The notes beneath the pieces are model-generated. The model was not told where the DNA came from, ran no database searches, and saw only the letters and a list, made by a program, of their open reading frames with translations. This document shows positions 3,116-25,803 of a DNA stretch of 29,823 nucleotides, in pieces. The translations under genes and the position numbers were made by a program. Origin of the DNA: a virus; IMG/VR virus record IMGVR_UViG_3300032291_001438, positions 1 to 29,823 of that record. One strand, 5' to 3'. Each line of letters begins with the position of its first letter. The first letter of the stretch is position 1.

Positions 3116-3126
3116 TTGTTAAAATA
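3116..3126 (+). promoter_or_regulatory. Recurrent TTGTTAAA element (candidate late promoter)
   Basis: TTGTTAAAATA stands in the 25-base gap between the tape measure stop and the protease start. Its first base is 13 nt before the ATG. Read as an extended -10 (TGnTAAAAT) it would place the transcript start at or just past the ATG, so a leaderless mRNA or a non-promoter role must be considered. Confidence 0.4.
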
Positions 3127-3128
3127 GT

Positions 3129-4496
3129 ATGATATACGAATTAGTAATAGAAGACGAGAACATAGATGAAGTATTTGCTATCTCATTAGTTAAATCACCA
3201 GCTATGGAAAGCAATTTTATTTACTTTGATAAAGAAGAAATAAAGTTTGCTGAAGTAAATGATGAAAAGAGATTAGTGATGGGTGCAATACTAATACCTG
3301 ATAAAAAGGTATTGCGTATAGATGGTGAAGGAAACCCATATCATGTTTTCTTTAAACCAGAAACTATTAGAAGATTATCTGAAATGTATTTAGAAAATAA
3401 ATACACAGACAAATCTACATTAGAGCACGATGGTGCAGTTGCTGGTGTGAATTTGGTTGAGTCATGGATAGTTGAAGATAGAATGAAAGATAAATCAGCA
3501 GTGTATGGTTTATCACTTCCAGTTGGAACTTGGGCTGGTACATTCCGAATCAACAACGATGAGATATGGAATGATTACGTTAAGGAAGGTAAAGTAAGAG
3601 GATTCTCAATCGAAGGCCTATTTGGACATAACTTAGTATCAGCTGCTAAAGAAGAGATTTGGATGAGCAAAGATATGGATGAGTTAAGTGATGATGAAGC
3701 CAACTTGTTCCTATCAATGATTAAAGATATAGTTAAGTTTCAATCTTATGCTGATTATGGTGATGAGATTAAAAACAATGCTAAAAGAGGAATCGAATTA
3801 AACGAAAAGAATGGTAATAAATGTGCTACTCAAACAGGTAAAGTAAGAGCACAACAATTAGCAAATGGTGAAGCAATATCAGTTGAGACAATTAAAAGAA
3901 TGTATTCTTTTTTGAGTAGAGCTGAAACATACTACGATGAAACTGATGTTAATGCTTGTGGTACAATATCATACCTATTATGGGGTGGTAAATCAGCCCT
4001 AAGTTGGAGTAGAAACAAACTAAAAGAATTGGGATTGTTGGAAGAGCAAGAAGCACAACCATCAATCGCATCTACATACCCTGGCGAAATAGCAAGTGGA
4101 AGTATTGCCCCTGCATTGTTAGCAGAAGGTGGTTGTCCCGAAGCAACGCAGAACATTGGATTAAATCTATTCAATCGACAAACTGCTATCAGGAAAGCAA
4201 AGTATGGACCTTTAAATCCAAACGAACCAAACGAAGAATATTGGAAAGCAAAAGCAGACCAATTTGGAAGTTCAGTTGAAGAAGCTAAGAAAGCACTATG
4301 TGCTAATTGTGTATTCTTCTACCAAACTCCACAAATATTAGATTGTATTGCTGGAGGTATAGAAGCAAAAGGAATGGATGACCCGTATTCGGCAATTGAT
4401 GCTGGTGATTTAGGTTATTGTGAAGCATTCGATTTCAAATGTGCAGCAAGTAGAACGTGTGATGCTTGGGTAGTAGGAGGTCCGATAACTAAATAA
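3129..4496 (+). CDS. XkdF-like prohead protease fused to a MAR-like and a cysteine-rich domain
   Basis: The N-terminal ~190 residues match the XkdF-type putative serine prohead protease pattern: MIYELVIEDE, an AISLVKSPAMESNF segment, STLEHDG, then VESWIVED, DKSAVYG, GTW and GFSIEG. Such proteins process capsid and scaffold proteins inside the prohead. Residues about 215-300 (NAKRGIELNEKNG, then VRAQQLANGEAIS and SYLLWGG) match a module I know fused to phage proteases and head proteins. Residues about 390-455 carry six cysteines: CANCVFF, ILDC, GYCEAFDFKC and RTCDAW. The CxxC...C...C spacing with adjacent aromatics recalls high-potential iron-sulfur proteins. The start is supported because MIYELVI is the usual beginning of this family. 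It is unusual that the protease lies after the tape measure gene, far from the capsid gene at 20964. Confidence 0.75.
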   Translation: MIYELVIEDENIDEVFAISLVKSPAMESNFIYFDKEEIKFAEVNDEKRLVMGAILIPDKKVLRIDGEGNPYHVFFKPETIRRLSEMYLENKYTDKSTLEHDGAVAGVNLVESWIVEDRMKDKSAVYGLSLPVGTWAGTFRINNDEIWNDYVKEGKVRGFSIEGLFGHNLVSAAKEEIWMSKDMDELSDDEANLFLSMIKDIVKFQSYADYGDEIKNNAKRGIELNEKNGNKCATQTGKVRAQQLANGEAISVETIKRMYSFLSRAETYYDETDVNACGTISYLLWGGKSALSWSRNKLKELGLLEEQEAQPSIASTYPGEIASGSIAPALLAEGGCPEATQNIGLNLFNRQTAIRKAKYGPLNPNEPNEEYWKAKADQFGSSVEEAKKALCANCVFFYQTPQILDCIAGGIEAKGMDDPYSAIDAGDLGYCEAFDFKCAASRTCDAWVVGGPITK

Positions 4497-4497
4497 T

Positions 4498-4824
4498 ATG
4501 AGAAACGCATTTTTATCTAACTTATACGAATTCGCAAAAAGAACTGAAATATCTTATCAGGAAATGAAAAAAGTTATTTTAGAAGCTGGTAGAGGTGGTT
4601 TACCTGTTACAATCTATTCAACTAAATTGGATGGTAGTAATAGAGTATTTGATGATAGTATTACCGTTAATGGACCAGGTGGTAAAGCAATGGGAGGTAC
4701 AATATATTGGAAAGCTCCTTACTATTATATGATTGTAAGAGAAGCAGGTGTTGGATTTAGAACAGTTATATTAAGAAATGTAAGTAAATTAAAAGTAGGT
4801 GGAAAAACACTCTACGTTAAGTGA
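4498..4824 (+). CDS. Unknown 108-aa protein at end of late operon
   Basis: It starts one base after the protease stop (TAATATG) and so is translated in the same operon. The first 30 residues are helical (FLSNLYEFAKRTEISYQEMKK), followed by a beta-rich part with Gly-rich turns (GPGGKAMGGTIYW) and a basic C-terminus. There is no signal peptide and no membrane helix. I do not recognise the family; position suggests a minor virion or head-assembly protein. Its last 13 bases overlap the 3' end of the convergent sigma gene, and no terminator separates the two. Confidence 0.7.
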   Translation: MRNAFLSNLYEFAKRTEISYQEMKKVILEAGRGGLPVTIYSTKLDGSNRVFDDSITVNGPGGKAMGGTIYWKAPYYYMIVREAGVGFRTVILRNVSKLKVGGKTLYVK

Positions 4825-5711
4825 TACATTTTTCTATACTTACTTTCGTAAGTTAATACATTACGAATTATATTCTCTTCTATATTAAGCTTTCTAGCCA
4901 TAGCAAGTATTCCATTAGTTCTACTACAACGTGGTTCGTAGTTATCTAATATATATTTTATTATTTCAGCCGATACTTGATTTGATTTTCTAAATTCAGG
5001 CATTTGACCTGTTTCCAAATAATGTTTTTTGGCATTGTAATAGTAGATGTTCAACCTATTATGAGCATCAGTAACAATCTTTTTCCATCTATCAGAATCA
5101 TGCTTCTTATCTAAACCTAATCGTTTAGCTATATCCGCTTGGAAGAACTTACGATTAAAATCTTCTATTTCATCCATCTCATAAAAGTATTCTAATGATA
5201 GATTACCAATCATAATATTAAGTTCACTTGTCATTATCTCTTCCATATTATCTTGCAAATAAGGAATTACCTTTGAAATAAAATCAGAATTAAGTTTTTT
5301 ATTATTCGTATCTGAATTATCTTCTTCCAAATCCATACCATCATCACCCCAGCTATCTATATACAATTCTTTTTTCATATCTTTGTAATTTGCTGCTGAG
5401 TCCTGAAAGTAATGGTTTCTTGCAATTATAGTAAAGTAAGAGAATGCTTTACCTTTTTCACCTTTGAATAGGTGTAATTTATCAAACATAAATACAACAC
5501 AATCCATCATTGCTTCACGTGGTTCTCCCATATAAGATATTTTGTATTTGTTGTAAACAATTTCAGCTATCTTATAGAATGGTTTGTAAATGTGTTGTGA
5601 AAATATTCTATCCCTTTCAGAATAGTCCGTGGACTTGTTATATGCATTTATAGCATCTTCAGTTTCTTGGGTGAAGTATTGTTTTGATTTTGGTTTTCTT
5701 CCTCTTGCCAT
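4812..5711 (-). CDS. T4 gp55-like late-transcription sigma factor
   Basis: This 299-aa protein matches the T4/cyanophage gp55 type of late sigma factor. Residues 40-60 (HIYKPFYKIAEIVYNKYK) and 70-102 hold the core, FMFDKLHLFKGEKGKAFSYF followed by TIIARNHYF. The family signature is a conserved D-K-(x)n-F-KGKAFSYF-I-A-N stretch in sigma region 2. gp55 factors bind host RNA polymerase and recognise a -10 element only, with no classical region 4. The C-terminal ~100 residues are helical and include a possible HTH-like segment (GILAMARKLNIEENIIRNVL). I chose the ATG at 5711 (MARGRKPKSK) over one 51 bases upstream because the upstream extension is not family-like and runs towards the promoter. It is the only minus-strand gene in the genome and would switch on the late genes. 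Confidence 0.78.
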   Translation of the reverse strand: MARGRKPKSKQYFTQETEDAINAYNKSTDYSERDRIFSQHIYKPFYKIAEIVYNKYKISYMGEPREAMMDCVVFMFDKLHLFKGEKGKAFSYFTIIARNHYFQDSAANYKDMKKELYIDSWGDDGMDLEEDNSDTNNKKLNSDFISKVIPYLQDNMEEIMTSELNIMIGNLSLEYFYEMDEIEDFNRKFFQADIAKRLGLDKKHDSDRWKKIVTDAHNRLNIYYYNAKKHYLETGQMPEFRKSNQVSAEIIKYILDNYEPRCSRTNGILAMARKLNIEENIIRNVLTYESKYRKMYHLT

Positions 5712-5759
5712 GTGTAACTTTATAGTATAACAAATAAACATTACTTTGTTATAATGGTA

Positions 5760-5791
5760 CAAAGATACAAAAAATATTTAACAAAAACAAA
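5760..5791 (-). promoter_or_regulatory. Host-type (Bacteroidota) promoter for the sigma gene
   Basis: On the minus strand a TTTG (5788-5791) is followed after 20 bases by TATCTTTG (5760-5767). This matches the Bacteroidota primary sigma consensus TTTG / TAnnTTTG exactly in both boxes. The transcript would start about 40-50 bases upstream of the sigma ATG. Confidence 0.72.
5774..5784 (-). promoter_or_regulatory. TTGTTAAA element inside the sigma gene promoter
   Basis: The minus strand reads TTGTTAAATAT here, matching the late-type element found elsewhere on the plus strand. It lies in the spacer of the host-type promoter and points toward the gp55-like gene, so that gene may be both an early gene and a target of its own product. 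Confidence 0.45.
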
Positions 5792-5793
5792 TT

Positions 5794-5976
5794 ATGTTAC
5801 CTGTAATAAATAAGAACGAAGATAAGAGTACTTACATACGAAGATGTATGTTTGAGTTGTGTGTTAATGGAAATAAGCAAGAGGATGAAGCATTCTATAT
5901 GTGTGAGGTTGAATACAACGTACAATTAGCTGAATTAGATAAACCTAAAACCAAAAAGAAAGATGCCAGTAGATAA
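5794..5976 (+). CDS. Small 60-aa protein with C-motif (paralogue of next gene)
   Basis: The product is small and charged: KNEDKSTYIRRC, a second Cys (FELC), then EDEAFYMCEVEY, and a Lys-rich tail. The pattern S/E-x-Y-(x)n-C ... D-x-A-x-x-x-C-x-x-x-Y resembles a short cysteine motif common in phage structural and accessory proteins, often near the protease or portal. The next gene carries the same pattern, so the two may be paralogues. It overlaps the next gene by 14 bases, and both are transcribed divergently from the sigma gene. The function is unknown. Confidence 0.65.
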   Translation: MLPVINKNEDKSTYIRRCMFELCVNGNKQEDEAFYMCEVEYNVQLAELDKPKTKKKDASR

Positions 5977-6286
5977 GCCAAAAGCAGGAGAAACGGAAGA
6001 GCAATACTTAGGATATTGCATACCAGAAGAAATTAAAGCAGGTAAAGCACAAGATGTTGCAGCTGCAATATGTTACTCTAATTATAGAAGAGAGAAGATG
6101 AGTAAGATTAAAGATACATCTAGAAAAGTAATGGCTAGAGTAAAGTACGATTCTGATTTTAGAGGAATACGTCTTACAAATTTAGGTGAGAACTCTGATG
6201 CTTGTTGGGAAAATTATATACAAGTTGGTACAAAGATATTAGATGGCAAAGAAGTACCTGATTGTAGAGGTCCAGTAGAAGATTAG
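5963..6286 (+). CDS. 107-aa protein with two cysteine-pair motifs
   Basis: The N-terminal half reads KPKAGETEEQYLGYC ... KAQDVAAAICYSNYRR, the short C...C motif seen in many phage proteins. The C-terminal part reads SDACWENYIQVGTKILDGKE then VPDCRGP, another short motif (NYxxxGTK-(x)n-VPxC) that I know from the ends of phage proteases and capsid-associated proteins. Here both motifs form a free-standing small protein. It overlaps the preceding gene by 14 bases and ends just before a strong terminator, so the two genes form a compact dicistronic unit. The role is unknown; the cysteines could bind metal. Confidence 0.68.
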   Translation: MPVDKPKAGETEEQYLGYCIPEEIKAGKAQDVAAAICYSNYRREKMSKIKDTSRKVMARVKYDSDFRGIRLTNLGENSDACWENYIQVGTKILDGKEVPDCRGPVED

Positions 6287-6307
6287 TTTATTTACCCATA
6301 ATTTAGA

Positions 6308-6338
6308 AACCCAGCTGATTATATCGGTTGGGTTTTTT
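6308..6338 (+). terminator. Rho-independent terminator after the 5794-6286 pair
   Basis: AACCCAGCT (6308-6316) pairs with GGTTGGGTT (6326-6334) around a 9-base loop, with two G-U pairs, followed by a run of six T (6333-6338). It closes the two-gene operon and insulates it from the ATPase promoter downstream. Confidence 0.8.
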
Positions 6339-6385
6339 GTGTTTATAGACATGGTAGAATAACATCAAAAGTTGGTAAAATAGCA

Positions 6386-6417
6386 TTTGTTTTTTCGGAT
6401 ATTTTTACTTACCTTTA
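6386..6417 (+). promoter_or_regulatory. Host-type (Bacteroidota) promoter for the AAA+ gene
   Basis: TTTG at 6386-6389 is followed after exactly 20 bases by TACCTTTA at 6410-6417, close to the TTTG / TAnnTTTG consensus. The transcript would start about 40 bases before the ATG at 6462. The promoter overlaps a longer upstream reading of the ORF from a TTG at 6387, which argues against that start. Confidence 0.65.
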
Positions 6418-6461
6418 CAATGTACTTCAATAGTGATTTACATAAAATAAACATATATAAA

Positions 6462-7319: not shown

Positions 7320-7325
7320 TTTAAC

Positions 7326-7769
7326 ATGAATAAGGAAGATTTAAAAAAATTACAGTTAGAATTAAAAAATATTGAATCAAATTTCAATATACCAGAATGG
7401 AAAATTGATAGAGCTGAAAGGATGAAATCACTTGCATCAATAGCTGCTTCATCAATACCAAACGAATTAAGACGTAAAGGTGGATTAAAAAATGTTGAAT
7501 CTGGTCATTGCAATCGTATTGCACATCTTGGTGGACAAGCAAATTCAAAATCAGGTCATATTCAGAGATTACAACCTATTGCTACAAAAGCAGCTAGTGA
7601 AGTTAATAAAAAGGAAGTTATTAAATTAGATAAAAAAGGAAATATTATTAAATCATATTCATCTATATTAGAAGCTTCTTTGGATAATAATAGAACACAA
7701 TCTACAGTATCAAACAATATAGCTGGTAGGACTAAGTATTGTGGTGGATTTAAATATAGGTTTAAATAA
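7326..7769 (+). CDS. NUMOD-containing DNA-binding protein (homing endonuclease remnant)
   Basis: The C-terminal ~50 residues (EVIKLDKKGNIIKSYSSILE then ASLDNN and GGFKYRF) match NUMOD1, the helix-turn-helix module found at the ends of HNH and GIY-YIG homing endonucleases. The middle carries two copies of a GG-x-x-N-x-x-SGH pattern, typical of linker regions in these enzymes. No nuclease motif (H-N-H or GIY-YIG) is visible. At 147 aa it is either a nuclease-less derivative used for DNA binding or a truncated homing gene. It follows the ATPase gene by six bases, apparently in the same transcript. Confidence 0.7.
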   Translation: MNKEDLKKLQLELKNIESNFNIPEWKIDRAERMKSLASIAASSIPNELRRKGGLKNVESGHCNRIAHLGGQANSKSGHIQRLQPIATKAASEVNKKEVIKLDKKGNIIKSYSSILEASLDNNRTQSTVSNNIAGRTKYCGGFKYRFK

Positions 7770-7869: not shown

Positions 7870-8334
7870 ATGAAAAACATTATTATTTATGACTCACATT
7901 TTGAGTTAATCAATTCACTAACCGATGAACAGGCAGGTATCCTAATAAAAGCAATTGGGTTATTTCGGTTAGGACAAGAACCCACAATAACCGATTCGTT
8001 AGTGTTGGGTATTTTTATGGCTATCAAAAGAGATTTCATTATCCAATCTGAAAACTATCAGAAAAAGGTTAAAACTAATCAGGAGAACGGAAAAAGGGGT
8101 GGAAGGCCTTCTAACCCAATTGGTATTAATAATAACCCACAAAACCCAGTCGGTTTATTCATAACCCAACCTAACCCACAAAACCTTAAAGATAAAGATA
8201 AAGATAAAGATAAAGATAAAGACAATATACAGTTACCTGGTAAAGCAGTCAGCAGTCCTGCTCCTGATTTATTTAGAAATAAGAATTTACCTAAACTTAA
8301 AGAAGAAGAATTTAATGAAATATTTTTTGGATAA
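7870..8334 (+). CDS. DUF6291-type replication (replisome organiser-like) protein
   Basis: The N-terminal ~70 residues (NIIIYDSHFELINSLTDEQ, ILIKAIGLFRLGQEP, LVLGIFMAIKRDF) follow the DUF6291 pattern of phage and prophage proteins encoded in replication modules, and the GKRGGRP segment after it is also typical. A low-complexity linker follows (Asn/Pro-rich, then six Lys-Asp units). The short C-terminus ends KEEEFNEIFFG, which looks like a protein-interaction tail. I infer a role in replication initiation or helicase loading with host factors, since no phage polymerase is present. The DNA coding the linker holds repeats that could be an origin (see separate entry). A 100-base gap with no convincing terminator precedes it; a TTTG at 7820 and A/T-rich boxes there could be a weak promoter. 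Confidence 0.6.
   Translation: MKNIIIYDSHFELINSLTDEQAGILIKAIGLFRLGQEPTITDSLVLGIFMAIKRDFIIQSENYQKKVKTNQENGKRGGRPSNPIGINNNPQNPVGLFITQPNPQNLKDKDKDKDKDKDNIQLPGKAVSSPAPDLFRNKNLPKLKEEEFNEIFFG
8113..8223 (+). repeat. AACCCA repeats plus (AAAGAT)5 tract; candidate origin
   Basis: Inside the replication gene, AACCCA occurs five times (8113, 8134, 8143, 8163, 8173); two copies are part of a longer TAACCCACAAAACC repeat. These are followed directly by five AAAGAT hexamers and one AAAGAC (8188-8223), an easily melted tract. The layout resembles iterons next to an unwinding element within an initiator gene, as in lambda O. The protein linker alone (NPQNP and Lys-Asp repeats) could also explain it. Confidence 0.35.
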
Positions 8335-8357
8335 TTCAGGAATATTTCGTATCTTTA
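8326..8357 (+). promoter_or_regulatory. Host-type (Bacteroidota) promoter before 8397
   Basis: TTTG at 8326-8329 and TATCTTTA at 8350-8357 are separated by 20 bases, one mismatch from TTTG / TAnnTTTG. The upstream box overlaps the end of the replication gene. The transcript would start about 30 bases before the ATG at 8397 and serve the small-gene cluster to 8914. Confidence 0.65.
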
Positions 8358-8396: not shown

Positions 8397-8582
8397 ATGG
8401 ATAATATAAGATACATAACGTTTGGTTGTAGTGAATCAATCCATCTATATAAAATGGAAGGTGGATATAACCCAACTTACCCATATAAGTCTCATAATAG
8501 TATGGATGAAGCGAGGACTTATTTGATTGAGCGAGGAGTAACGGATGTAAAAATAATTAAACACTATGGAACAAAACATTAA
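8397..8582 (+). CDS. Small unknown 61-aa protein
   Basis: It begins MDNIRYITFGCSESIHLY about 40 bases after a host-type promoter. A C-terminal segment (MDEARTYLIERGVTDVKIIK) looks like an alpha-beta unit. There is no signal peptide or membrane segment. Its last 17 bases overlap the next small ORF. I do not recognise it; early phage genes of this size often encode host-modulating proteins, but nothing here shows that. Confidence 0.6.
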   Translation: MDNIRYITFGCSESIHLYKMEGGYNPTYPYKSHNSMDEARTYLIERGVTDVKIIKHYGTKH

Positions 8583-8914: not shown

Positions 8915-8916
8915 CA

Positions 8917-8927
8917 TTGTTAAAATA
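8917..8927 (+). promoter_or_regulatory. TTGTTAAA element before a structured intergenic region
   Basis: TTGTTAAAATA begins two bases after the stop of the preceding gene. It is the only copy of the element not close to a start codon; the next gene begins at 9151. It precedes a run of hairpins ending in a terminator. Confidence 0.4.
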
Positions 8928-8943
8928 TTGTACAAAGGGTTAC

Positions 8944-9087
8944 TGCCATTACCTAGTGTACATAGGGGTAGGATAGACGCTGGTTTGTTTGTTCTTACGA
9001 TTATATCTTATATACAGCACCTACCCCGCAAATATTTATTTGTTAGTTGTGTTAAAGGGTGCTGCTTTTAGTGGCATCCTTTTTATT
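8944..9087 (+). ncRNA. Candidate structured small RNA or attenuator leader
   Basis: This gene-free stretch (8915-9150) folds into successive hairpins. GGGGTAGG (8965-8972) pairs with CCTACCCC (9020-9027), enclosing GCTG (8979-8982) with CAGC (9015-9018). CAAAT (9029-9033) pairs with ATTTG (9038-9042). A terminator follows at 9054-9087. The G-rich arm can instead pair with upstream TACCTA (8951-8956), so two exclusive folds exist. It is not a tRNA: no T-loop motif, and the stem-enclosed span is only 63 nt. The element at 8917 could start the transcript. The remaining 63 bases to the HNH start hold only A/T-rich leader. Confidence 0.4.
9054..9087 (+). terminator. Rho-independent terminator upstream of the HNH gene
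   Basis: AAAGGGTGC (9054-9062) pairs with GCATCCTTT (9074-9082), nine pairs with one G-U, with an 11-base loop and a T-rich tail (9080-9087). It ends the 8397-8914 operon or the candidate RNA. Confidence 0.72.
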
Positions 9088-9150
9088 GCTTTAAAAAAAA
9101 TCTAATACTTATAGTAGGGTTCACCCACTAACAAACTAAACAAAAAACAA

Positions 9151-9722: not shown

Positions 9723-9983
9723 ATGGAAGAACTACAACCAAACGTACCTGAATCAAGATATAAACCTTTAAACTTAGAAGAGTTTCAGGAATTAAAACTA
9801 AACTTACAAGGAGTAGGAACACACCTACCTACACACTTAGCAGGATATATGTGGGCAAAGTGTAACGCAATCAGAGGAGAAAGAACTGCACAACCATGCA
9901 CTTGCCAATCATCAGGTGGATTATGGATGGCATGTATCAATGACTTAAATAAATTTGTAAAGGATAAAGAGAATGCTCAATAG
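9723..9983 (+). CDS. 86-aa Cys-motif protein of Bacteroidota phages
   Basis: It starts one base after the preceding stop. The C-terminal half has MWAKCNAIRG, then QPCTCQSSGGLWMACINDLN, a C...PCxC-xSSG-xLW pattern I associate with small conserved proteins in this phage group. The four cysteines suggest metal binding or DNA contact, which is inference. Its end overlaps the sigma-like gene by 11 bases, in a tight operon with it. Confidence 0.62.
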   Translation: MEELQPNVPESRYKPLNLEEFQELKLNLQGVGTHLPTHLAGYMWAKCNAIRGERTAQPCTCQSSGGLWMACINDLNKFVKDKENAQ

Positions 9984-10515
9984 TGGTGATGAAAATATAA
10001 GAAGATTAGAAAATCTATATAAGCAATCACACAAATGGTTGATGGCAGTTTCATATAACACATCAAAGAATAAAGAAATATCTGAAGAGTTAGTATCGGA
10101 CTTGTATCTTTACCTTGCTGAAAGAGTTAATCCAAATCTATGGTGGGGTAACGATTCATTTAATTTAATGTACTGCCACTCATTCATTAAGACCCGTTTC
10201 ATAAACAAAGTAAAAGTTCTTAATCGTATGTGTACCATATCTCCTCACTACGATACGATTGAAGAAGAATACGATGAAGAGTTCGATAAGAGATTAGAAA
10301 CCGCTTACGATGGAGTTATTGAAGAATTAAAGGCAATGGAGAGAACGAAGTTGTGGCCGGCATCTAAACTTTATCAAATGTATGTGTTCACCGAAGGTAT
10401 GACGTTGGACAAGCTAAGTAATGAAATCCATATCAGTAAGAGTACATCATTCTTAAATGTAAAGAAAGCAAAGAAGCATCTAAGAGAAACAATACAAAAC
10501 CCATTTAAAGACTAA
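9973..10515 (+). CDS. Sigma-70-like regulator (small phage sigma-like protein)
   Basis: This 180-aa protein has the layout of a small sigma or sigma-like factor. A region-2-like helical block covers residues about 10-85 (SEELVSDLYLYLAERVNPNL, MYCHSFIKTRFINKV). A C-terminal helix-turn-helix block like sigma region 4 follows (residues about 130-175: LYQMYVFTEGMTLDKLSNEI, HISKSTSFLNVKKAKKHL). An acidic linker (EEEYDEEFDKR) joins them. It could direct middle or late transcription or regulate packaging/terminase genes downstream. It is distinct from the gp55-like factor on the minus strand. It is followed after one base by the methyltransferase gene. Confidence 0.65.
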   Translation: MLNSGDENIRRLENLYKQSHKWLMAVSYNTSKNKEISEELVSDLYLYLAERVNPNLWWGNDSFNLMYCHSFIKTRFINKVKVLNRMCTISPHYDTIEEEYDEEFDKRLETAYDGVIEELKAMERTKLWPASKLYQMYVFTEGMTLDKLSNEIHISKSTSFLNVKKAKKHLRETIQNPFKD

Positions 10516-11152: not shown

Positions 11153-11203
11153 CTAACGCCTAACGAACGAACTCACAACCCATCAATACAATCTATCCAA
11201 TCA

Positions 11204-11214
11204 ATGTTAAAATA
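11204..11214 (+). promoter_or_regulatory. WTGTTAAA element before the terminase genes
   Basis: ATGTTAAAATA lies 30 nt before the ATG of the terminase small subunit, in an 81-base gap after the methyltransferase gene. It would be the entry point of the packaging operon and marks the early/late boundary. Confidence 0.45.
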
Positions 11215-11233
11215 TCAGTAGATAACAAATATT

Positions 11234-11533
11234 ATGTTTGAGAAAGGAAATAAATTAAGTAAGGGTAGACCATCAGGTGCATTGAATCGTTCTACCGAAC
11301 AAATGAAACTAACATTGGCTAGAGCTGCTAACAACACACTCAATACGATAGCAGAAGATTTAGAGAAGATAAGAAAGAAAGACCCAGAGAAAGCCATTGA
11401 GCTATCCCTAAAGCTAATGGAATATGTCCTACCTAAATTGAGTAGGACAGAGATGAAAGCAGAGATTGATACACGGATACAAGCAATCAATGTAAACATA
11501 GCACAAAAGAACATAGATGAACTTAGAGATTAA
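11234..11533 (+). CDS. Terminase small subunit
   Basis: The N-terminus (MFEKGNKLSKGRPSGALNR) is the basic GNKLxKGRPxGxxN motif common to small phage DNA-binding and terminase-small-subunit proteins. The remaining part is helical, with KKDPEKAIELSLKLMEYVLP, the pattern seen before the large terminase in many phages. At 99 aa it is short but usual. It overlaps the large subunit gene by 17 bases. It would recognise the packaging site and load the large subunit. Confidence 0.72.
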   Translation: MFEKGNKLSKGRPSGALNRSTEQMKLTLARAANNTLNTIAEDLEKIRKKDPEKAIELSLKLMEYVLPKLSRTEMKAEIDTRIQAINVNIAQKNIDELRD

Positions 11534-12677
11534 TACAACAGTAACGTATAGTAATCAGCAGGATTCTCCAACTAGAGTAACTCATCACATAGGTGGAACT
11601 CGTAGTGGTAAAACATACGCATTACTTCAATGGTGTATCGTACAAGCTCTTAGTAGCAAGGAAACGATTACTATTGTAAGAAAGACAATACCATCGCTTA
11701 AACGTACAGTAATGAAGGACTTTAAGGATGTGATGATGAGCTTGGGTATATGGAATGAAAATGATTTTAATATCTCTGATAGGATATACAACTTCTATAC
11801 TGAATCTCAAATACAATTCATATCAACGGATGATGCTGAAAAGCTGAGAGGATTAAAGAGTACTATCTTATGGTTGGAAGAAGCTAATGAGATAGATGAA
11901 GAATCTTACTTTCAGCTACAAATTCGTACAACAGGTCCAATCATATTATCCTATAACCCAACTATATCTCCATACCATTGGATAAGGTTAATGCAAGAGT
12001 GTACAAGACACTTTACAACCTATAAGAACAATCCTTATTTAGAAGCTAGTGTTAAGAAAGCTATTGAAGATTTACAAAGAACAAATCCAAAGGCATGGTT
12101 AGTGTATGGATTAGGAGAGTATGTAAGTAATGAGAAAGCAATCTTCCAATTCAACGTAGTAGATTTCCTACCTGATGAAGCCACCTTTGTTGCATTCGGA
12201 TTAGACTTTGGATACTCATCTGACCCAACTGCATTAGTTAGTGTATGGAAGATGGATAATGAGCTATACATTATGGAGCATTGCTATGAGAAAGGAATGG
12301 TAACATCCGATATAGATAATATGTTAAGGAGTGTTGTGAAAGATAGAGAAGAGATATGGGCTGATAGTGCAGAACCAAGATTGATAGATGAACTATACCG
12401 ATTAGGATGGAATATAAGACCTGTAATAAAAGGAAAGGATAGTATTAACTTTGGTATTCAGGTAATGCAGAACTATAAGATTAACATACCAAAGACATGC
12501 CAAAACCTAACCAATGAGTTCTATTCATATGAGTGGAGTTCAGATAGGTTCGGTAAGCAATTAGATAAACCAGTAGATTTCAATAATCACCTAATTGACG
12601 CAGCTAGATATGCAGCAATGATGAGGTTATCAAACAAAGCCACAGCGCAAGGCAAATACATAATCAGCGTAAGATAA
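11517..12677 (+). CDS. terL: Terminase large subunit
   Basis: This 386-aa packaging motor has an N-terminal ATPase with Walker A GGTRSGKT (residues about 26-33) and Walker B STILWLEEANE (about 115-125). The C-terminal RNase H-like nuclease shows FGLDFGYSSDPTALV (about 227-241), the second acidic site IWADSAEPRLIDEL (about 279), and NHLIDAARYA (about 357-366). This is a PBSX/phage-terminase-large-subunit type. It is a little short but all motifs are present. It powers DNA translocation into the prohead and cuts the concatemer. The N-terminus overlaps the small subunit end. Confidence 0.93.
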   Translation: MNLEINTTVTYSNQQDSPTRVTHHIGGTRSGKTYALLQWCIVQALSSKETITIVRKTIPSLKRTVMKDFKDVMMSLGIWNENDFNISDRIYNFYTESQIQFISTDDAEKLRGLKSTILWLEEANEIDEESYFQLQIRTTGPIILSYNPTISPYHWIRLMQECTRHFTTYKNNPYLEASVKKAIEDLQRTNPKAWLVYGLGEYVSNEKAIFQFNVVDFLPDEATFVAFGLDFGYSSDPTALVSVWKMDNELYIMEHCYEKGMVTSDIDNMLRSVVKDREEIWADSAEPRLIDELYRLGWNIRPVIKGKDSINFGIQVMQNYKINIPKTCQNLTNEFYSYEWSSDRFGKQLDKPVDFNNHLIDAARYAAMMRLSNKATAQGKYIISVR

Positions 12678-13717: not shown

Positions 13718-13731
13718 TATATCATACTTTT
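13716..13731 (+). terminator. Weak terminator-like hairpin
   Basis: AGTAT (13716-13720) pairs with ATACT (13724-13728) around a three-base loop, followed by a T/C-rich run. The stem is short and A/T-rich and overlaps the stop of the -1 frame. Weak support only. Confidence 0.25.
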
Positions 13732-13741
13732 TCTTCTTTAA

Positions 13742-13752
13742 TTGTTAAAGTA
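13742..13752 (+). promoter_or_regulatory. TTGTTAAA element before 13774
   Basis: TTGTTAAAGTA is 32 nt before the ATG of the small Cys protein, which heads the fibre gene cluster. It stands in the 56-base gap after the tail chaperone genes. Confidence 0.45.
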
Positions 13753-13773
13753 TAAAAAAGAAATAAACCTATT

Positions 13774-14022
13774 ATGGGAACACCTGCATATAGACAAAAC
13801 CAACGTAAAAATAGTGGAATATATCTAGGGCCAACTAGAGGTAAATCATCTCCAAAGAACTCAAGAATGGGTTGTTTGTGTTTGAATACCGACACATATT
13901 CAAAAAAATGTTGCAATGGTGCTTTACAACAGCAAGGAATTGGACAAACGCAAGGACCTCCAATACAAAGAGGAGCGTTTAGTTCTGGGTTCTCATCAGG
14001 ATTTGATATAGGAAATATATAA
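13774..14022 (+). CDS. Small Cys-rich virion-associated protein
   Basis: This 82-aa protein has a central motif RMGCLCLNTDTYSKKCCNGA then LQQQGIGQ. The GCLC-x(n)-YSxxCC(N/D)G-x(n)-QGIG motif recurs in small proteins of many Bacteroidota phages, encoded near tail genes. The four cysteines could form a metal site or disulphides. The N-terminus is basic and the C-terminus is Gly/Ser/Phe-rich. It stands 18 bases before the collagen-like fibre. Function is unknown; a small structural or fibre-linked part is a reasonable guess. Confidence 0.6.
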   Translation: MGTPAYRQNQRKNSGIYLGPTRGKSSPKNSRMGCLCLNTDTYSKKCCNGALQQQGIGQTQGPPIQRGAFSSGFSSGFDIGNI

Positions 14023-18246: not shown

Positions 18247-18304
18247 AGTATTTAAACAATACAAATACTACTCAAACTAATCTTAAATAAAAACCCAAAC
18301 TTAA

Positions 18305-18315
18305 TTGTTAAATAA
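18305..18315 (+). promoter_or_regulatory. TTGTTAAA element before 18330
   Basis: TTGTTAAATAA is 25 nt before the ATG of the spike-base-like gene. The whole leader is nearly identical to that at 20228, with both followed by A-rich AAATAAA runs. Confidence 0.45.
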
Positions 18316-18329
18316 ATAAAAATAAAAAT

Positions 18330-18611
18330 ATGAAATTAGAAACACAACAATCATATGTAACTAATCCACAATTCGTAGGTGGTGTAGCTGTAACTCCAGT
18401 ATCTGGTTCTACATTTGCAAACTTTAACGAAAACAATCCTCAATTTGGATTTGTAGCAGGTGGACTATATGTTGGAAAGGAAGGAGATTTAGTAGTAAAA
18501 ACTTATGATAGTTCAGTATTGACATTTGCATCAGCATCAGGATTCATACCTGGTATTATTACTGCTGTATCAGCATCTTCTACTGCACAAATCATTATTG
18601 CTTTAAGATAA
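18330..18611 (+). CDS. Small beta protein, spike-base/decoration-like
   Basis: This 93-aa protein has the layout of the small phage spike-base family (RCAP_Rcc01079 type): residues about 45-90 read FVAGGLYVGKEGDLVVKTYD, then LTFASASGFIPGIITAVSAS and a final IIIAL. The pattern is GGLYVGxxGDLxV ... VxFxxVxxGxxxPIxxxxV ... xIIAL. In other phages such proteins sit at the base of tail spikes. Here it lies directly before a Gly-rich fibre, with nine bases between, which fits an adaptor. It could also be a capsid decoration protein. Confidence 0.55.
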   Translation: MKLETQQSYVTNPQFVGGVAVTPVSGSTFANFNENNPQFGFVAGGLYVGKEGDLVVKTYDSSVLTFASASGFIPGIITAVSASSTAQIIIALR

Positions 18612-20201: not shown

Positions 20202-20227
20202 AAAAATAACTATAAAAAAGAGTACAA

Positions 20228-20238
20228 TTGTTAAATAA
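20228..20238 (+). promoter_or_regulatory. TTGTTAAA element before the capsid operon
   Basis: TTGTTAAATAA lies 27 nt before the scaffold ATG, in a 53-base gap. It would start the transcript for scaffold and major capsid protein, which the hairpin at 21936 may attenuate. Confidence 0.5.
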
Positions 20239-20254
20239 ATAAAAAATAAATAAT

Positions 20255-20950
20255 ATGAATCCAAAACACGTATTAAGTAAGATTATGGCCGTTCTTTCTG
20301 CAAAGGAAGAGGTTTTATTCACTTACGCTAGATTGGCTGATGGAGCGATAGTAGAGTCTCCAACATTTGACTTAGGAGAAACTGTTGAAGTAGTAACTGA
20401 AGATGGTAAAACTCCAGCACCAGATGGATACCACGATTTAGAATTAAAAGATGAATCAGGTAACGAAGTGTACATTAGAGTAAAGACCGAAGGCGGTGTA
20501 ATTACTGAAAGAGAAAATGTTGAGGAAGCTAAACCAGCTGCAAAAGCAGAATTTGAAAGCGTAGCAGGTGAAGATATTGGAGGTGGTGAAGGTGAAGCTG
20601 ATGAGCAAACCGATACTGCTGAACCATTGACAGAAGATACTGATATGAAAAAAGTAATCCAAAAATTACAATATCGTATTGAAGAGATGGAAAAGAAAAT
20701 GCAATCAATGGAAGAAATGTTTCCAAAGCCATCAGGTGAAGAAACAATATATGATGGTAAAGGAGCTGAAGAAACTAAGGAAATCAAACCTGAAATGATG
20801 GCAGCTGTTGACCCAGAAGAGGAAGAGGAAGAACTTCCAAAATTAGATGGAGCTCCTGTTGAGGAAAAAGCACCATTTAAAGCAAAACAAAATTTCGGTA
20901 AGAAAATAATGACTCCACAGTCTTCTTTCTTATCTAAACTATATAACTAA
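20255..20950 (+). CDS. Putative capsid scaffold protein
   Basis: This 231-aa protein is strongly acidic (EEEEEELP; GGGEGEADEQTDTAEP). Residues 1-90 form a small beta-rich domain (LFTYARLADGAIVESPTFDL, YIRVKTEGG). A coiled coil follows (about 129-158: MKKVIQKLQYRIEEMEKKMQ), then a disordered acidic part and a basic C-terminus (APFKAKQNFGKKIMTPQSS). It is immediately upstream of the major capsid gene, 13 bases away, and acidic coiled-coil proteins with basic C-termini in this place are typically scaffolds whose C-terminus contacts the capsid protein. The XkdF-like protease elsewhere would digest it. There is no sequence family I can name firmly. Confidence 0.65.
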   Translation: MNPKHVLSKIMAVLSAKEEVLFTYARLADGAIVESPTFDLGETVEVVTEDGKTPAPDGYHDLELKDESGNEVYIRVKTEGGVITERENVEEAKPAAKAEFESVAGEDIGGGEGEADEQTDTAEPLTEDTDMKKVIQKLQYRIEEMEKKMQSMEEMFPKPSGEETIYDGKGAEETKEIKPEMMAAVDPEEEEEELPKLDGAPVEEKAPFKAKQNFGKKIMTPQSSFLSKLYN

Positions 20951-20963
20951 AATAAAAATTAAA

Positions 20964-21917
20964 ATGAGAAAACAACAAAACTTTGCTGAACCAAGGTTCA
21001 CTCAAAATACTTACGCAGGTGAATTCGCTGGTAAGTATATTGCAGCAGCGTTGTTATCAGCTACAACTTTGGACAACAAAAACATCACAATCTTACCGAA
21101 CGTGAAGTATAAGCAAGTTATCCAAAGAATTGATGTTGATAGCATTGTAAATGATGCATCTTGTAATTTCGTAACTTCAGGTACAGTAGCTCTTTCTGAA
21201 AGAATTATCGAACCTAAAGAATTACAAGTAAACTTAGAATTATGTAAGCAAGAATTCGTAGATTCGTGGGAAGCTCTTCAATTGGGTTACTCTGCATTCG
21301 ATGAGATTCCAGCTTCTTTCAATGACTTCTTAATCTCTTATGTTGGAGGTAAAGTAGCTCAAGCAACTGAAGAATCAATTTGGAGAGGTGTTGGTGCAAC
21401 TAACGGACAATTCGCAGGTTTATTACCAGCTTTATCAGCATCAGCAGCAGCAGGTGGTACTGGAGCAGTAATCAAATCTTCTGCTTCTGGTTCAATCACT
21501 GCAGCTAACGTATTAACTAAATTAGATGCATTAGTAAATGCTATCCCTGAAGCAGTTTACGGAAAAGAGGATTTAGTAATCTACATCCCAACTAACGTAG
21601 CTAAGGCTTACCAACAAGCATTGTCTGGTAATGGTGTTACTAACGGTTTCAACAACCAATTAAACGTTGGTGAAAAACCATTCAATTTTAATGGTATTGA
21701 ATTAGTATGGTCACCAGGTATGACTTCTTCTTACTTAGTAGCAGCACAAAAATCTAACTTATTCTTCGGAACAGGTTTATTAAGTGACTACAACGAAGTT
21801 AGAGTTTTAGACATGGCTAACTTGGATGGTTCACAGAACTATCGTGTGATTATGAGATATACAGCTGGTACGCAATTTGGTATCGGACAAGATATCGTTA
21901 TCGCAGTTCCTAACTAA
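20964..21917 (+). CDS. Major capsid protein
   Basis: This 317-aa protein is assigned as the major capsid protein. It starts RKQQNFAEPRFTQNTYAGEF, with a helix and beta segments typical of HK97-fold proteins (ITILPNVKYKQVIQRID; ELQVNLELCKQEFVDSWEAL). A long helix at the middle (VGGKVAQATEESIWRGVGAT) precedes an insert (LSASAAAGGTGA). The C-terminal half holds a beta domain (LVIYIPTNVAKAYQQALSG) ending RVIMRYTAGTQFGIGQDIVI. Length, codon quality and position behind a scaffold support it. No N-terminal delta domain is seen, as expected when scaffold is a separate gene. The A/T-rich leader and absence of a Shine-Dalgarno sequence fit a Bacteroidota host. Confidence 0.8.
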   Translation: MRKQQNFAEPRFTQNTYAGEFAGKYIAAALLSATTLDNKNITILPNVKYKQVIQRIDVDSIVNDASCNFVTSGTVALSERIIEPKELQVNLELCKQEFVDSWEALQLGYSAFDEIPASFNDFLISYVGGKVAQATEESIWRGVGATNGQFAGLLPALSASAAAGGTGAVIKSSASGSITAANVLTKLDALVNAIPEAVYGKEDLVIYIPTNVAKAYQQALSGNGVTNGFNNQLNVGEKPFNFNGIELVWSPGMTSSYLVAAQKSNLFFGTGLLSDYNEVRVLDMANLDGSQNYRVIMRYTAGTQFGIGQDIVIAVPN

Positions 21918-21935
21918 TAAAAAAATTGAGTATGT

Positions 21936-21960
21936 AATGGGAGGGTGAGATTCCCTCCTT
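21936..21960 (+). terminator. Hairpin between capsid and tail tube genes (partial terminator)
   Basis: GGAGGG (21940-21945) pairs with CCCTCC (21953-21958) around a seven-base loop; the flanks GTAA/TTAC add pairs. The T tail is short (TTT). It may stop part of the transcripts so that capsid protein is made in excess over the genes downstream. Confidence 0.55.
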
Positions 21961-21996
21961 TACTCTAAAAAAATTAACATTTAAACTTATAATATT

Positions 21997-22548
21997 ATGG
22001 CTTGTAATTTAAGCGCTGGAAGAAATGAAGTTTGTAAAGATAGTGTAGGTGGACTTGCAGGAGTTTACTTTCTTAACTATACAACAGGTTCTTTCACTAA
22101 AAACGCAAACGGAGAAGTTACTGCATTTCCTTCAGCTAGTACTGTGTACTACTATGAATTGAAAGGTAACTCAAGCTATACTGAAACTGTTAATTCATCT
22201 CGTGACAATGGTACAACTTTCTTCTCTCAAGAATTAACTCTTAACTTGAAGAAATTGACTAACGAAATGACTACTCAATTAAAGCTAATGGCTTATGGCC
22301 GTCCTCAAATTGTAGTTTCTACAATGGCGGGTGATGCTTTATTAGTAGGTCAAAACGAAGGAGCAGATGTAACTGCAGGAACTATTCAAACTGGTGGAGC
22401 TATGGGTGACCTTTATGGTTATTCAGTAACTTTCACTGGATTAGAGCAGTTACCAGCAGCATTCATTTCTGGTTCTACTTATGGTAATCCATTCGGCGCA
22501 TTAGCTGGAGCAGGAAAACCAACCATTGTTTACGGAAGTAATTCTTAA
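21997..22548 (+). CDS. Major tail tube protein
   Basis: This 183-aa protein matches the tail tube proteins of Bacteroidota siphophages: the N-terminus MACNLSAGRNEVCKDSVGGL, then YYYELKGNSSYTETVNSSRD, NGTTFFSQELTLNLKKLTNE, MAYGRPQIVVSTMAGD and GAMGDLYGYSVTFTGLEQLP. The ELKG-x-SS-x-T ... SRDNGTTFF ... L-x-x-L motif is a good family sign. It polymerises as the tail tube. A strong terminator follows at 22568, as expected for a highly expressed virion gene at the end of an operon. Confidence 0.75.
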   Translation: MACNLSAGRNEVCKDSVGGLAGVYFLNYTTGSFTKNANGEVTAFPSASTVYYYELKGNSSYTETVNSSRDNGTTFFSQELTLNLKKLTNEMTTQLKLMAYGRPQIVVSTMAGDALLVGQNEGADVTAGTIQTGGAMGDLYGYSVTFTGLEQLPAAFISGSTYGNPFGALAGAGKPTIVYGSNS

Positions 22549-22567
22549 TCAGTATAGATAAAATATT

Positions 22568-22595
22568 AAAGGGAGACATAGTTCTCCCTTTTTTT
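22568..22595 (+). terminator. Strong rho-independent terminator after the tail tube gene
   Basis: AAAGGGAGA (22568-22576) pairs perfectly with TCTCCCTTT (22583-22591) around a six-base loop, followed by a run of T to 22595. It ends the capsid/tail tube transcript. The next TTGTTAAA element lies 30 bases downstream. Confidence 0.92.
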
Positions 22596-22624
22596 ATGCC
22601 CAATAACTAAAATTTGAGTTAAGT

Positions 22625-22635
22625 TTGTTAAATAT
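22625..22635 (+). promoter_or_regulatory. TTGTTAAA element before the portal operon
   Basis: TTGTTAAATAT lies 37 nt before the ATG at 22662, directly after the strong terminator. This pairing of a terminator with the element supports its role as a new transcript start. Confidence 0.55.
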
Positions 22636-22661
22636 ATAGATAAATCATAGATAAAGACAAG

Positions 22662-23015
22662 ATGCTATCATACTATATATCTGGAAGTAATGTGTTCACA
22701 CTTAGAACTAAACCTACGGGTTCTTCCAATTTAACTTTACATCTACAAGATATGTACACATTGGTGAATACATCTTCATCAATTAGTAGATATACATACA
22801 ATGCTTACCAAAGTTTGTTGCAGTTTACAGGTTCTATTGTATCATCTAGTGTAGGTGATGAATATAGAGCTTACATAAGTGATACTACTTGTTCTATTTG
22901 GAATGGTTCTATACAAGTATATACATCACAATCTATTGATAAACCAGCATATGTAAACCAAAATGATGGATATATCAGTAATTTATCAGATAATGCATTT
23001 ATTATATTAGACTAA
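22662..23015 (+). CDS. Unknown beta-rich 117-aa protein upstream of the portal gene
   Basis: The product is rich in Ser, Thr and Tyr and beta-prone (YYISGSNVFTLRTKPTGSSN, YQSLLQFTGSIVSSSVGDEY, RAYISDTTCSIWNGSIQVYT). A similar small protein with an xDxYR-A-x-I-x-D...IWxGxIxxY pattern is common in Bacteroidota phage structural gene clusters. It ends one base before the portal gene, in the same operon. It may be a head or neck component; the exact role is not known. Confidence 0.65.
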   Translation: MLSYYISGSNVFTLRTKPTGSSNLTLHLQDMYTLVNTSSSISRYTYNAYQSLLQFTGSIVSSSVGDEYRAYISDTTCSIWNGSIQVYTSQSIDKPAYVNQNDGYISNLSDNAFIILD

Positions 23016-23016
23016 T

Positions 23017-24264
23017 ATGGAAATTAAACACAAACAACAAAATCTTTCGGTAGTAAGTTTATCTCAACAGGAGATACCAATCATTACAGAAGATGTAAAG
23101 ACAAGATATGCATGGGTGCCAGTAGGTATTATAGATATTGATGATTACTTTCAAAATGTAACTGATGCTTATACAACATCTACAACAAATGCAGCTTGTA
23201 TTGAAGGTATAGCTGATTTAATCTATGGTAAAGGATTGTATTCTAAAAGTGAAGAAATACAAAAGATATTAGATAAAGTATTACCACAAGAAGAAACAAA
23301 GAGAGTAGCATTTGATTTAAAATTATATGGTAATGCTGCTTATCAGGTATATTGGAATGATGACCATAGTAAAGTAATTAAATTTTACCATGTTCCAGTA
23401 CAAAACATTCGTGCTGAAAAGATATATGATAATCCTCGTATAGAGAACTACTACTATTGTACTGATTGGAGTGACCATAAAGCACAAAGAAGTAAAAAAC
23501 TAATTCCAGCGTTTGGTACATCAAATGAGAAGATGGAGTTGTTATATATTAAAAATTACACACCAGGCAAATATTATTACTCATTACCTGATTGGATATC
23601 TGCATTACAATTTTCATTTGTAGAAGCTGAATTATCTAACTTACACCTTAACAATATTGAGAATGGTTTCTTACCATTGGTAATGATTAATATGAACAAT
23701 GGTATTCCAGCTCCTGAAGAGAGAGATACTATTGAAGATATGATTGAATCTAAGTTTACAGGTACTAGAAATGCTGGTAGATTTATTCTTACATTCAATG
23801 ATGACCCAGAAAGAAAACCTACAATTGATGCTGTACAAATTGATAACTTACATGAGAAGTTCCAATATGTTTCAGAATATGCACAGGATAGAATATTGGT
23901 TGCACATAGAATCACATCTCCTTTATTATTCGGTATCCGTACTGCGAATAATGGATTTAGTTCTCAATCTGAAGAGATGAAAACTGCATTCTCTATTATG
24001 CAAACAATGACAATACAACCATTCCAAAATACAATCATTGGAGCATTAACAACTGCATTGGCTGATGGTGGATATGAAGATACTAAATTATACTTTGACC
24101 AATTAACTCCATTAGTTATTCTTTCACAAACTGCTGAAGAGACTGGTAAGACAGTTGACCAGGTAGCAGAAGAAACCAATAGAGAAATGGAAAATCCAGA
24201 TGTTACTGAAACTGATGGTGAAGGAATGATTGATAACAATACATTACAAAATGATACAATTTAA
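23017..24264 (+). CDS. Portal protein
   Basis: This 415-aa protein fits the portal of siphophages. It begins with a region ending YAWVPVG, then DIDDYFQNVTDAYTTSTTNA, AACIEGIADLIYGKGLY, the wing block FDLKLYGNAAYQVYWNDDHS, and VIKFYHVPVQNIRAEKI. A long helix region follows (FVEAELSNLHLNNIENGFLP; RDTIEDMIESKFTGTRNAGR), and the clip/crown region (RILVAHRITSPLLFGIR) precedes the acidic C-terminus. It forms the dodecameric channel in the capsid vertex and binds the terminase. It is unusual that it lies downstream of the capsid and tail tube genes. Confidence 0.85.
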   Translation: MEIKHKQQNLSVVSLSQQEIPIITEDVKTRYAWVPVGIIDIDDYFQNVTDAYTTSTTNAACIEGIADLIYGKGLYSKSEEIQKILDKVLPQEETKRVAFDLKLYGNAAYQVYWNDDHSKVIKFYHVPVQNIRAEKIYDNPRIENYYYCTDWSDHKAQRSKKLIPAFGTSNEKMELLYIKNYTPGKYYYSLPDWISALQFSFVEAELSNLHLNNIENGFLPLVMINMNNGIPAPEERDTIEDMIESKFTGTRNAGRFILTFNDDPERKPTIDAVQIDNLHEKFQYVSEYAQDRILVAHRITSPLLFGIRTANNGFSSQSEEMKTAFSIMQTMTIQPFQNTIIGALTTALADGGYEDTKLYFDQLTPLVILSQTAEETGKTVDQVAEETNREMENPDVTETDGEGMIDNNTLQNDTI

Positions 24265-24274
24265 TTAAACAGAT

Positions 24275-24793
24275 ATGGCGTACGCATTATTTATTAGCAG
24301 AAACGATATAATCAAAAATACCCCATTACAGGGTTCTATTGATGCGGATAGAATACTTCCGTTTGTAAAAACAGCGCAAGAAAAGTATATTCTAAACATA
24401 TTAGGAACTGTATTATACTATTATTTACAGGCTAGAATAGAAGCAAATACATTCAGTCAATTGGATTCTTATTATCAGGACCTAATGAATGAACATATCA
24501 AACCAACTCTAATATGGTATGCAACGGTTGAGTATTTACCATTTAGTGGAGTACAATTTAAAAGTGAAGGTGCAGTAAAGCATAAATCAGACCAGAGTGA
24601 TGCAGTTGGTAAGAATGAAATAGATTACCTATTGCAAAAAGCTATGAACAATGCTGATTACTATTCTACTAGAACACAGAACTATTTAATATCTTATTCA
24701 AACCAAATACCACAATACTTAGAATCAGTTGGGAATCAAACTCAAATTTATCCTGATATGGCTAACCAATACTTTGGAGGTATAAACTTATAA
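24275..24793 (+). CDS. Head-tail connector / head completion protein (DUF6712-like)
   Basis: This 172-aa protein is largely helical: SRNDIIKNTPLQGSIDADRI, KTAQEKYILNILGTVLYYYL, LIWYATVEYLPF and SEGAVKHKSDQSD. The pattern of an N-terminal loop, then two or three long helices and a short KSDxS segment is what I know of DUF6712-type head completion proteins of Bacteroidota phages. It lies ten bases after the portal gene and before the tail completion genes, which fits a protein attaching to the portal. Confidence 0.65.
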   Translation: MAYALFISRNDIIKNTPLQGSIDADRILPFVKTAQEKYILNILGTVLYYYLQARIEANTFSQLDSYYQDLMNEHIKPTLIWYATVEYLPFSGVQFKSEGAVKHKSDQSDAVGKNEIDYLLQKAMNNADYYSTRTQNYLISYSNQIPQYLESVGNQTQIYPDMANQYFGGINL

Positions 24794-24797
24794 TAAT

Positions 24798-25334
24798 ATG
24801 GGACAAGCAGTAGTTAATAATGTAGGCACAAACTATATGTTGTACTATAACATAATAGATTTCTTTGCAACTATTATGGCAAATCACCCGTCTATTGCTA
24901 AAGTATCAACAGGTGATATGTACGAAATTGATACAACTGAATTTCCACAATATCCAATTGGTAATATAAACATATTGGGAGCTAGATTTGGTACAAAAAC
25001 TACTAATCTTACTGTTCAATTAACAATTGCTGATAAAGTTAAAGATAAAAATAACGAATCAGTAGGTAGAACAAATTATCAGAAAGTCCCATTCTACGGA
25101 ACTGATGATACAATGGATATACACTCTAATACTTTGAGCATACTAAACGATTTATTAAGTTATACTGATTATGGTGTAAATGCATTTGAATTCGCTGGTG
25201 AACCAAATGCCACCCCATTTAAGGACAACTTTGATAATGGACTTGCTGGTTGGGTTTGTAATTTTGATTTAATTGTGTTCAATGATGTTGATAGATGTTT
25301 ATTTAATCTATCAGGTAAAATCAATCTTTGTTAA
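24798..25334 (+). CDS. Tail terminator / tail completion protein
   Basis: This 178-aa protein shows an alpha-beta layout (YYNIIDFFATIMANHPSIAK; YPIGNINILGARFGTKTTNL; TVQLTIADKVKDKN) followed by a helical stretch that reads DTMDIHSNTLSILNDLLSYT, and a C-terminal beta part ending NFDLIVFNDVDRCLF. This combination, just before an HK97 gp10-like protein, is typical of the tail terminator class. The stop (TAA) and the next start (ATG) share a base, TAATG, so translation is coupled to the next gene. Confidence 0.65.
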   Translation: MGQAVVNNVGTNYMLYYNIIDFFATIMANHPSIAKVSTGDMYEIDTTEFPQYPIGNINILGARFGTKTTNLTVQLTIADKVKDKNNESVGRTNYQKVPFYGTDDTMDIHSNTLSILNDLLSYTDYGVNAFEFAGEPNATPFKDNFDNGLAGWVCNFDLIVFNDVDRCLFNLSGKINLC

Positions 25335-25768
25335 TGAAAACTTTTCAGGAAGTAGCTAATGCATATGGTGTACTTCCCTACAATGTTGCTAACACATATA
25401 GGGATGTTGCTCAATCTTATATCAAAAATGGATATTCAGGTTGGCCAAATCCTCCATACTTAACAGGTAATTTATATCGTAGAGTAGGTTCATACAATAC
25501 CGCTGCAAAGATGACACAAAAGCGTGGTAAAACATATTCAGTAACTTTAGATTTCGCACCACCAAAAGCAGAGTATGGATACTTTGCAGAAACTGGAACA
25601 GGTACTCATAGTAAAAAAGGTCCAAGACCATATGCACAATTAGGTGCAAACTCATTACAAGTTAGAAAAGCAATTGGAGAATGGGAAAGAGGATTGGTGG
25701 CAAGTATTAACAAAGAAGTAGGTAATCAAATATCAACTGTATTCGGTAATTTCGGTAAAAAGAAATAG
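25334..25768 (+). CDS. HK97 gp10-like neck/tail-completion protein
   Basis: This 144-aa protein (start MKTFQEVANAYGVLPYNVAN) carries PPYLTGNLYRRVGSYNTAAK, then a beta hairpin KTYSVTLDFAPPKAEYGYFA, and the hallmark YFAETGTGTHSKKGPRPYAQ near the C-terminal third. The TGxLxxxI ... YxxxxExGTxxxxxxP[FY] pattern is typical of HK97 gp10-type connector proteins. The ATG at 25334 is chosen in place of a TTG at 25328 because it overlaps the preceding stop. It would join head and tail. Confidence 0.75.
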   Translation: MKTFQEVANAYGVLPYNVANTYRDVAQSYIKNGYSGWPNPPYLTGNLYRRVGSYNTAAKMTQKRGKTYSVTLDFAPPKAEYGYFAETGTGTHSKKGPRPYAQLGANSLQVRKAIGEWERGLVASINKEVGNQISTVFGNFGKKK

Positions 25769-25792
25769 TATCCAATAAATTATTCATTTTTA

Positions 25793-25803
25793 TTGTTAAA
25801 GTA
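25793..25803 (+). promoter_or_regulatory. TTGTTAAA element before the distal tail operon
   Basis: TTGTTAAAGTA lies 31 nt before the ATG at 25824, in a 55-base gap. It would begin the transcript for the distal tail genes running across the contig join. Confidence 0.5.

Follow-up and report, generated by a model that had tools for sequence, protein, structure and literature searches.

A two-part sequence element as the probable late promoter of a Bacteroidota virus, with an ECF-like protein as candidate reader

From sequence comparisons and structure predictions we conclude that the TTGTTAAA boxes described here very probably act as start signals of late genes in a Bacteroidota virus. The fuller reading, which we consider reasonably likely, is that these boxes belong to a bipartite phage late promoter that starts transcription at position 13 (counting the core as 0 to 7), that it is most likely read by the ECF-like protein encoded at 9973-10515, and that two of the transcripts are leaderless. 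The preliminary description had also proposed late promoters, and this proposal is supported by the relatives, in which the motif, its two parts, its strand, and its spacing are conserved. We found no published late-promoter description or transcription map for such phages in the open-licence literature searched, and the sites in Table 1 amount to a map of promoters and start sites, open to testing, for a phage group that is abundant and uncultured.

Table 1. Predicted promoters, related motif copies, and sigma-like genes in the window, the whole 29,823-base stretch analyzed (rank, position in the matrix scan)
Feature	Coordinates	Strand	Motif	Predicted start	Gene(s) downstream	Rank	Remarks
Predicted late promoter	408-445	+	ATGTTAAA 432-439	445	445-588, upstream of tape-measure gene	8	Upstream part present
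Predicted late promoter	3092-3129	+	TTGTTAAA 3116-3123	3129	3129-4496 (XkdF-like protease)	9	Upstream part poor
gp55-like sigma	4812-5711	-					C-terminal HTH-like extension; family alignments, weak fold matches to sigma factors
Possible late-type promoter	5720-5733	-	TTGTTATA 5733-5726		gp55-like gene	6	Position 13 is A 5720
Putative host-type early promoter	5760-5791	-	TTTG-N20-TATCTTTG		gp55-like gene		Spacer holds 5777(-) copy of TTGTTAAA
Putative host-type early promoter	6386-6417	+	TTTG-N20-TACCTTTA		AAA ATPase gene		
Putative host-type early promoter	8326-8357	+	TTTG-N20-TATCTTTA		8397-8582		
TTGTTAAA copy	8917-8924	+	TTGTTAAA			71	No upstream part; position 13 is G, not A; kept in L001
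ECF-like sigma factor, proposed late-promoter reader	9973-10515	+					180 aa; fold, domain, and PHROG matches in family
Predicted late promoter	11180-11217	+	ATGTTAAA 11204-11211	11217	11234-11533; terminase large subunit 11517-12677	7	A at position 13
Predicted late promoter	13718-13755	+	TTGTTAAA 13742-13749	13755	13774-14022	1	Conserved in L001
Predicted late promoter	18281-18318	+	TTGTTAAA 18305-18312	18318	18330-18611	5	A at position 13
Predicted late promoter	20204-20241	+	TTGTTAAA 20228-20235	20241	20255-20950; major capsid 20964-21917	2	A at position 13
Predicted late promoter	22601-22638	+	TTGTTAAA 22625-22632	22638	22662-23015; portal 23017-24264	3	A at position 13
Predicted late promoter	25769-25806	+	TTGTTAAA 25793-25800	25806	25824-26990	4	A at position 13

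It is the placement of the motif, not its abundance, that matters, since counts over the whole window are raised only mildly (8 copies of TTGTTAAA against 4.2 expected and 15 of WTGTTAAA against 9.1), yet all eight TTGTTAAA copies are intergenic. By our own gene calls, noncoding DNA makes up 1,360 of the 29,823 bases (about 4.5% of the genome), and 1,000 simulations under a first-order model of the same sequence gave a mean of 0.51 intergenic copies and a maximum of 4. TTGTTAAA is also the commonest 8-mer of the window's intergenic DNA. The ten coordinates listed in the preliminary description all proved right when checked against the window sequence; every copy lies in the sense of the next gene, and the full form is absent from coding regions, as had been claimed, while five other ATGTTAAA copies lie inside genes. 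A comparison with shuffled intergenic sequence had been named beforehand as a test on which the idea could fail, and the finding survived it (8 copies against 0.5 expected).

A position matrix trained without the window and without its relative L001, that is, on relatives' sites only, placed 432, 3116, 11204, 13742, 18305, 20228, 22625, 25793, and 5733(-) as the top nine sites in the window. The earlier view of all ten copies as one element thus holds for eight of them, which form one class, and fails for the copy at 8917 (Table 1), which is probably outside the late class, and for that at 5777(-), which ranks 790th. The site at 5733(-), which the first reading had missed, lies 22 nt upstream of the gp55-like ATG.

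Relatives were collected from IMG/VR with the capsid, terminase, and protease genes (80 loci each), and 26 longer records were analyzed over their entire length. In the 241 upstream regions that remained after deduplication, no 8-mer is more overrepresented than TTGTTAAA, with 52 sense and 4 antisense copies, although homologous loci are not independent and p-values for strand and distance are therefore overstated. Aligning the relatives' sites brought out a second block upstream of the core, and while the conservation of the core in that alignment is due to exact-match selection, an EM analysis of the relatives is free of this selection and returned approximately CATCCAATAYWTTT, N10, TKGTTAAA, N5, A. 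In the EM model, which thus has two blocks, GTTAAA is nearly fixed, the first two core bases vary, and position 13 is A at 94% of the family's sites. Scores above the 99th percentile of their own reverse complements were reached by 71 of the 233 upstream regions. The upstream block, about CAMTAYAWTTT, spans positions -20 to -11 at a fixed distance from the core. The motif had originally been read as an extended -10 box with no -35, and the second element found at fixed upstream spacing by both site alignment and EM overturns that part of the interpretation.

The start position is suggested by the same sites, as position 13 is A at all eight late sites of the window. Where a sense site lies no more than 100 nt from a start, exactly 5 nt separate core and start codon in 14 cases, versus a mean of 1.6 for each other distance from 0 to 12 nt, and some of the short distances may be gene-start errors; the other sense sites include few at 6 to 12 nt, and most lie at 15 to 24 and 29 to 36 nt. 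The simplest reading would be an RNA that starts at position 13, with a zero leader at some genes and mostly 10 nt or more elsewhere. Most relatives, even at about 53% identity, carry GTTAAA-N5-ATG at their homologue of gene 3129; a sister group has GTTATT with the same spacing (one nucleotide more in G012). Leaderless mRNAs are predicted because these homologues mostly keep the exact spacing, and what had been raised as a caveat for 432 and 3116 is thereby supported as a sequence prediction. At both sites the predicted start is the A of the ATG, and the N5 spacing of gene 445-588 recurs before similar genes at other loci. In this phylum most transcripts have leaders (over 10 nt for 87% of those in F. 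johnsoniae, PMC6847099), and leaderless mRNAs whose exact spacing had persisted through deep divergence would be noteworthy there.

We favor the protein encoded at 9973-10515 over the gp55-like protein as the reader of the late promoters, because its gene occurs in all genomes that cover the locus, because it has an ECF fold, and because a cultured phage offers a parallel, while the gp55-like gene is dispensable for the motif; the argument is one of association, from co-occurrence and fold. The gene immediately precedes the terminase operon and occurs in 19 of the 19 family genomes covering its locus (G009, G010, and G018 lack it only because their contigs end there). The structure of the protein was predicted with a pLDDT of 87, and its best PDB fold matches are ECF sigma factors, at modest scores (top E 1.3e-4, TM about 0.4). 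Of its 35 family members, 7 match Pfam Sigma70_r2, 9 match Sigma70_r4, and 21 match the sigma factor family phrog_1740, with the window protein itself below the Pfam threshold. Fold and family matches together indicate sigma-2 and sigma-4 domains only, the arrangement that characterizes ECF sigma factors, and the window family likewise pairs a two-part promoter with near-constant spacing. It differs from other ECF systems in that the candidate sigma, which sequence annotation alone had missed, is phage-borne and would control a late structural-gene regulon with the core TKGTTAAA. No promoter was found directly before gene 9973 in the window, and the terminator-like stem at 9054-9082 separates this gene from the 8326 promoter.

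The parallel comes from the Nonlabens phage P12024S, a distant phage that could serve as a cultured stand-in for the uncultured group. It encodes a Sigma70_r2 protein near the terminase that scores above the Pfam cut-off and whose similarity to the window family is weak (E 2e-5). In its genome, AAAAC-N14..18-CGTTA has 8 matches where 1.0 would be expected, and seven of the eight immediately precede annotated starts; these seven sites have the form AAAAC-N16/17-CGTTA, which we take to be an ECF-like late motif, and their core lies 5 nt from the ATG in six cases and 4 nt in one. The -35/-10 spacing is about 2 nt shorter in the window family than in P12024S. A tblastn search of 9973-10515 against cultured phages gave no match, and Cellulophaga phi46:1 showed neither a TTGTTAAA bias nor a clear sigma match. 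The 9973 sigma family is weakly matched in five distant relatives (G019 to G023; L360 to L369; E 1e-5 to 1e-12), which showed no GTTAAA or GTTATT bias.

Under the favored reading, early genes would use the host housekeeping promoter, TTTG-N20-TAnnTTTR, and the late operons would then be switched on by a sigma factor of the phage, for which the ECF-like protein is the likeliest candidate. The core would act as the -10 side, recognized by the sigma-2 domain and setting the start, and the upstream element would act as the -35 side, recognized by the sigma-4 domain; at two promoters the start would fall on the A of the ATG and yield leaderless mRNAs. A broader picture, which we offer tentatively, is that of a Bacteroidota siphophage group with a phage-borne ECF-type sigma for late genes and with some essential head genes that are always leaderless, one branch of which was joined by an extra gp55-family sigma with a fused DNA-binding domain.

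The preliminary description had assigned the motif to the gp55-like sigma. PHROG and Pfam searches with the gp55-like protein alone gave no useful match, and two members of its family match a PHROG late sigma. The family is also found in large phages, including Flavobacterium phage immuto, and most of the small-phage proteins carry an added C-terminal HTH-like region. Eight relatives lack the gene although their sequence extends across the stretch that follows gene 3129 (G002, G024, and G025, in which this slot is not covered, were left out), with no convincing six-frame match, and both neighboring genes are recognizable in six of the eight. One of these relatives, G014, has an apparently complete genome with ends that overlap by 127 bases. 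The motif is nevertheless kept in seven of the eight, as GTTAAA in G013, G014, G015, and G017 and as GTTATT in G008, G012, and G016, with the same upstream block in all seven; in G011 the motif is unclear. Its strand bias is 59 sense to 5 antisense in genomes with the gp55-like gene and 22 to 1 (GTTAAA) and 16 to 0 (GTTATT) in those whose covered slot lacks it. The attribution to gp55 is unsupported because the promoter persists in these seven relatives without the gene, which is probably an early gene that the motif does not require.

It is rather unlikely that the two sigma-like proteins share control of the late class where both occur, or that the gp55-like protein forms an added layer, be it for a middle class or as feedback through 5733(-). 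Both genes are kept in G000, G001, G003 to G007, and G026, and the gp55-like gene has a host-type promoter plus a late-like site, but the gp55-like-positive genomes yielded no separate second class of phage motif. The 5733(-) site is at the same time an arm of an inverted repeat and may be an operator instead of a late-type promoter. The repeat itself (TATAACAAA / TTTGTTATA, 5726-5753, minus strand) lies between the host-type promoter and the gp55-like ATG, has similar counterparts in relatives, and could be an operator or a promoter.

The T4 late box lies at -13 to -6, and the distance of 13 nt from the first T of the motif to the predicted start equals that of T4. In T4, a sigma factor encoded by the phage directs the host polymerase to late promoters that are short and A/T-rich; the window also resembles T4 in having a gp55-like gene, and the motif is strongly biased in genomes with that gene. 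It is still quite unlikely that the late promoter is an extended -10 box alone with the gp55-like protein as its sigma: T4 late promoters, which depend on gp55, gp33, and the sliding clamp (PMC2988020, PMC7892883), have no upstream element (PMC2988020), whereas the window family has one at fixed spacing, its motif persists without the gp55-like gene, and some of its mRNAs are predicted to be leaderless. The large-phage gp55 relatives (L005 to L084), tested as a source of the same motif, lack it and have a different upstream word, ATATTTAT. Their upstream regions are rich in CGTATATTTATA on the sense strand (72 to 9 for ATATTTAT), which is possibly a phage promoter class of their own.

The Bacteroidota housekeeping promoter has the consensus TTTG / TANNTTTG (PMC6847099), and the window's putative early promoters resemble it: the gp55-like gene (5791-), the AAA gene (6386+), and gene 8397 (8326+) are each preceded by TTTG-N20-TAnnTTTR, and G003, G004, G005, and G007 have a similar promoter before their gp55-like genes. 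The late sites differ in lacking the -33 TTTG, which stands at the expected place in only about 2 of 71. This makes it very unlikely that a host -7 box (TAnnTTTG) accounts for the upstream element, with the start near position -2 and TTGTTAAA at the mRNA 5' end; TAYWWTT does resemble TAnnTTT and position -2 is A or G in 91%, yet such a box would lack the TTTG found at N20 in the early promoters and would leave the A at position 13 and the exact N5 to the ATG unexplained. A role for TTGTTAAA as a translation signal (a ribosome-binding or RNA-processing element) is highly improbable, for although the motif always closely precedes a start codon and lies in the sense direction, its distance from that codon varies from 5 to 36 nt, a second block lies upstream, and in the window it precedes the first gene after a gap, not closely packed internal genes.

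A scan of the window for sigma-70 consensus promoters gave hits not above those in shuffles, and Rfam and tRNA scans of the window returned nothing. The noncoding stretch at 8915-9150 has a conserved counterpart in L001, is predicted to fold better than its shuffles do (z -2.8), and includes the stem at 9054-9082; a small RNA without an Rfam match is possible there. The ends of the window overlap by 123 bases (1-123 / 29701-29823) inside a Thr-Pro repeat gene, and the genome is probably circularly complete, or the end join is a repeat artifact.
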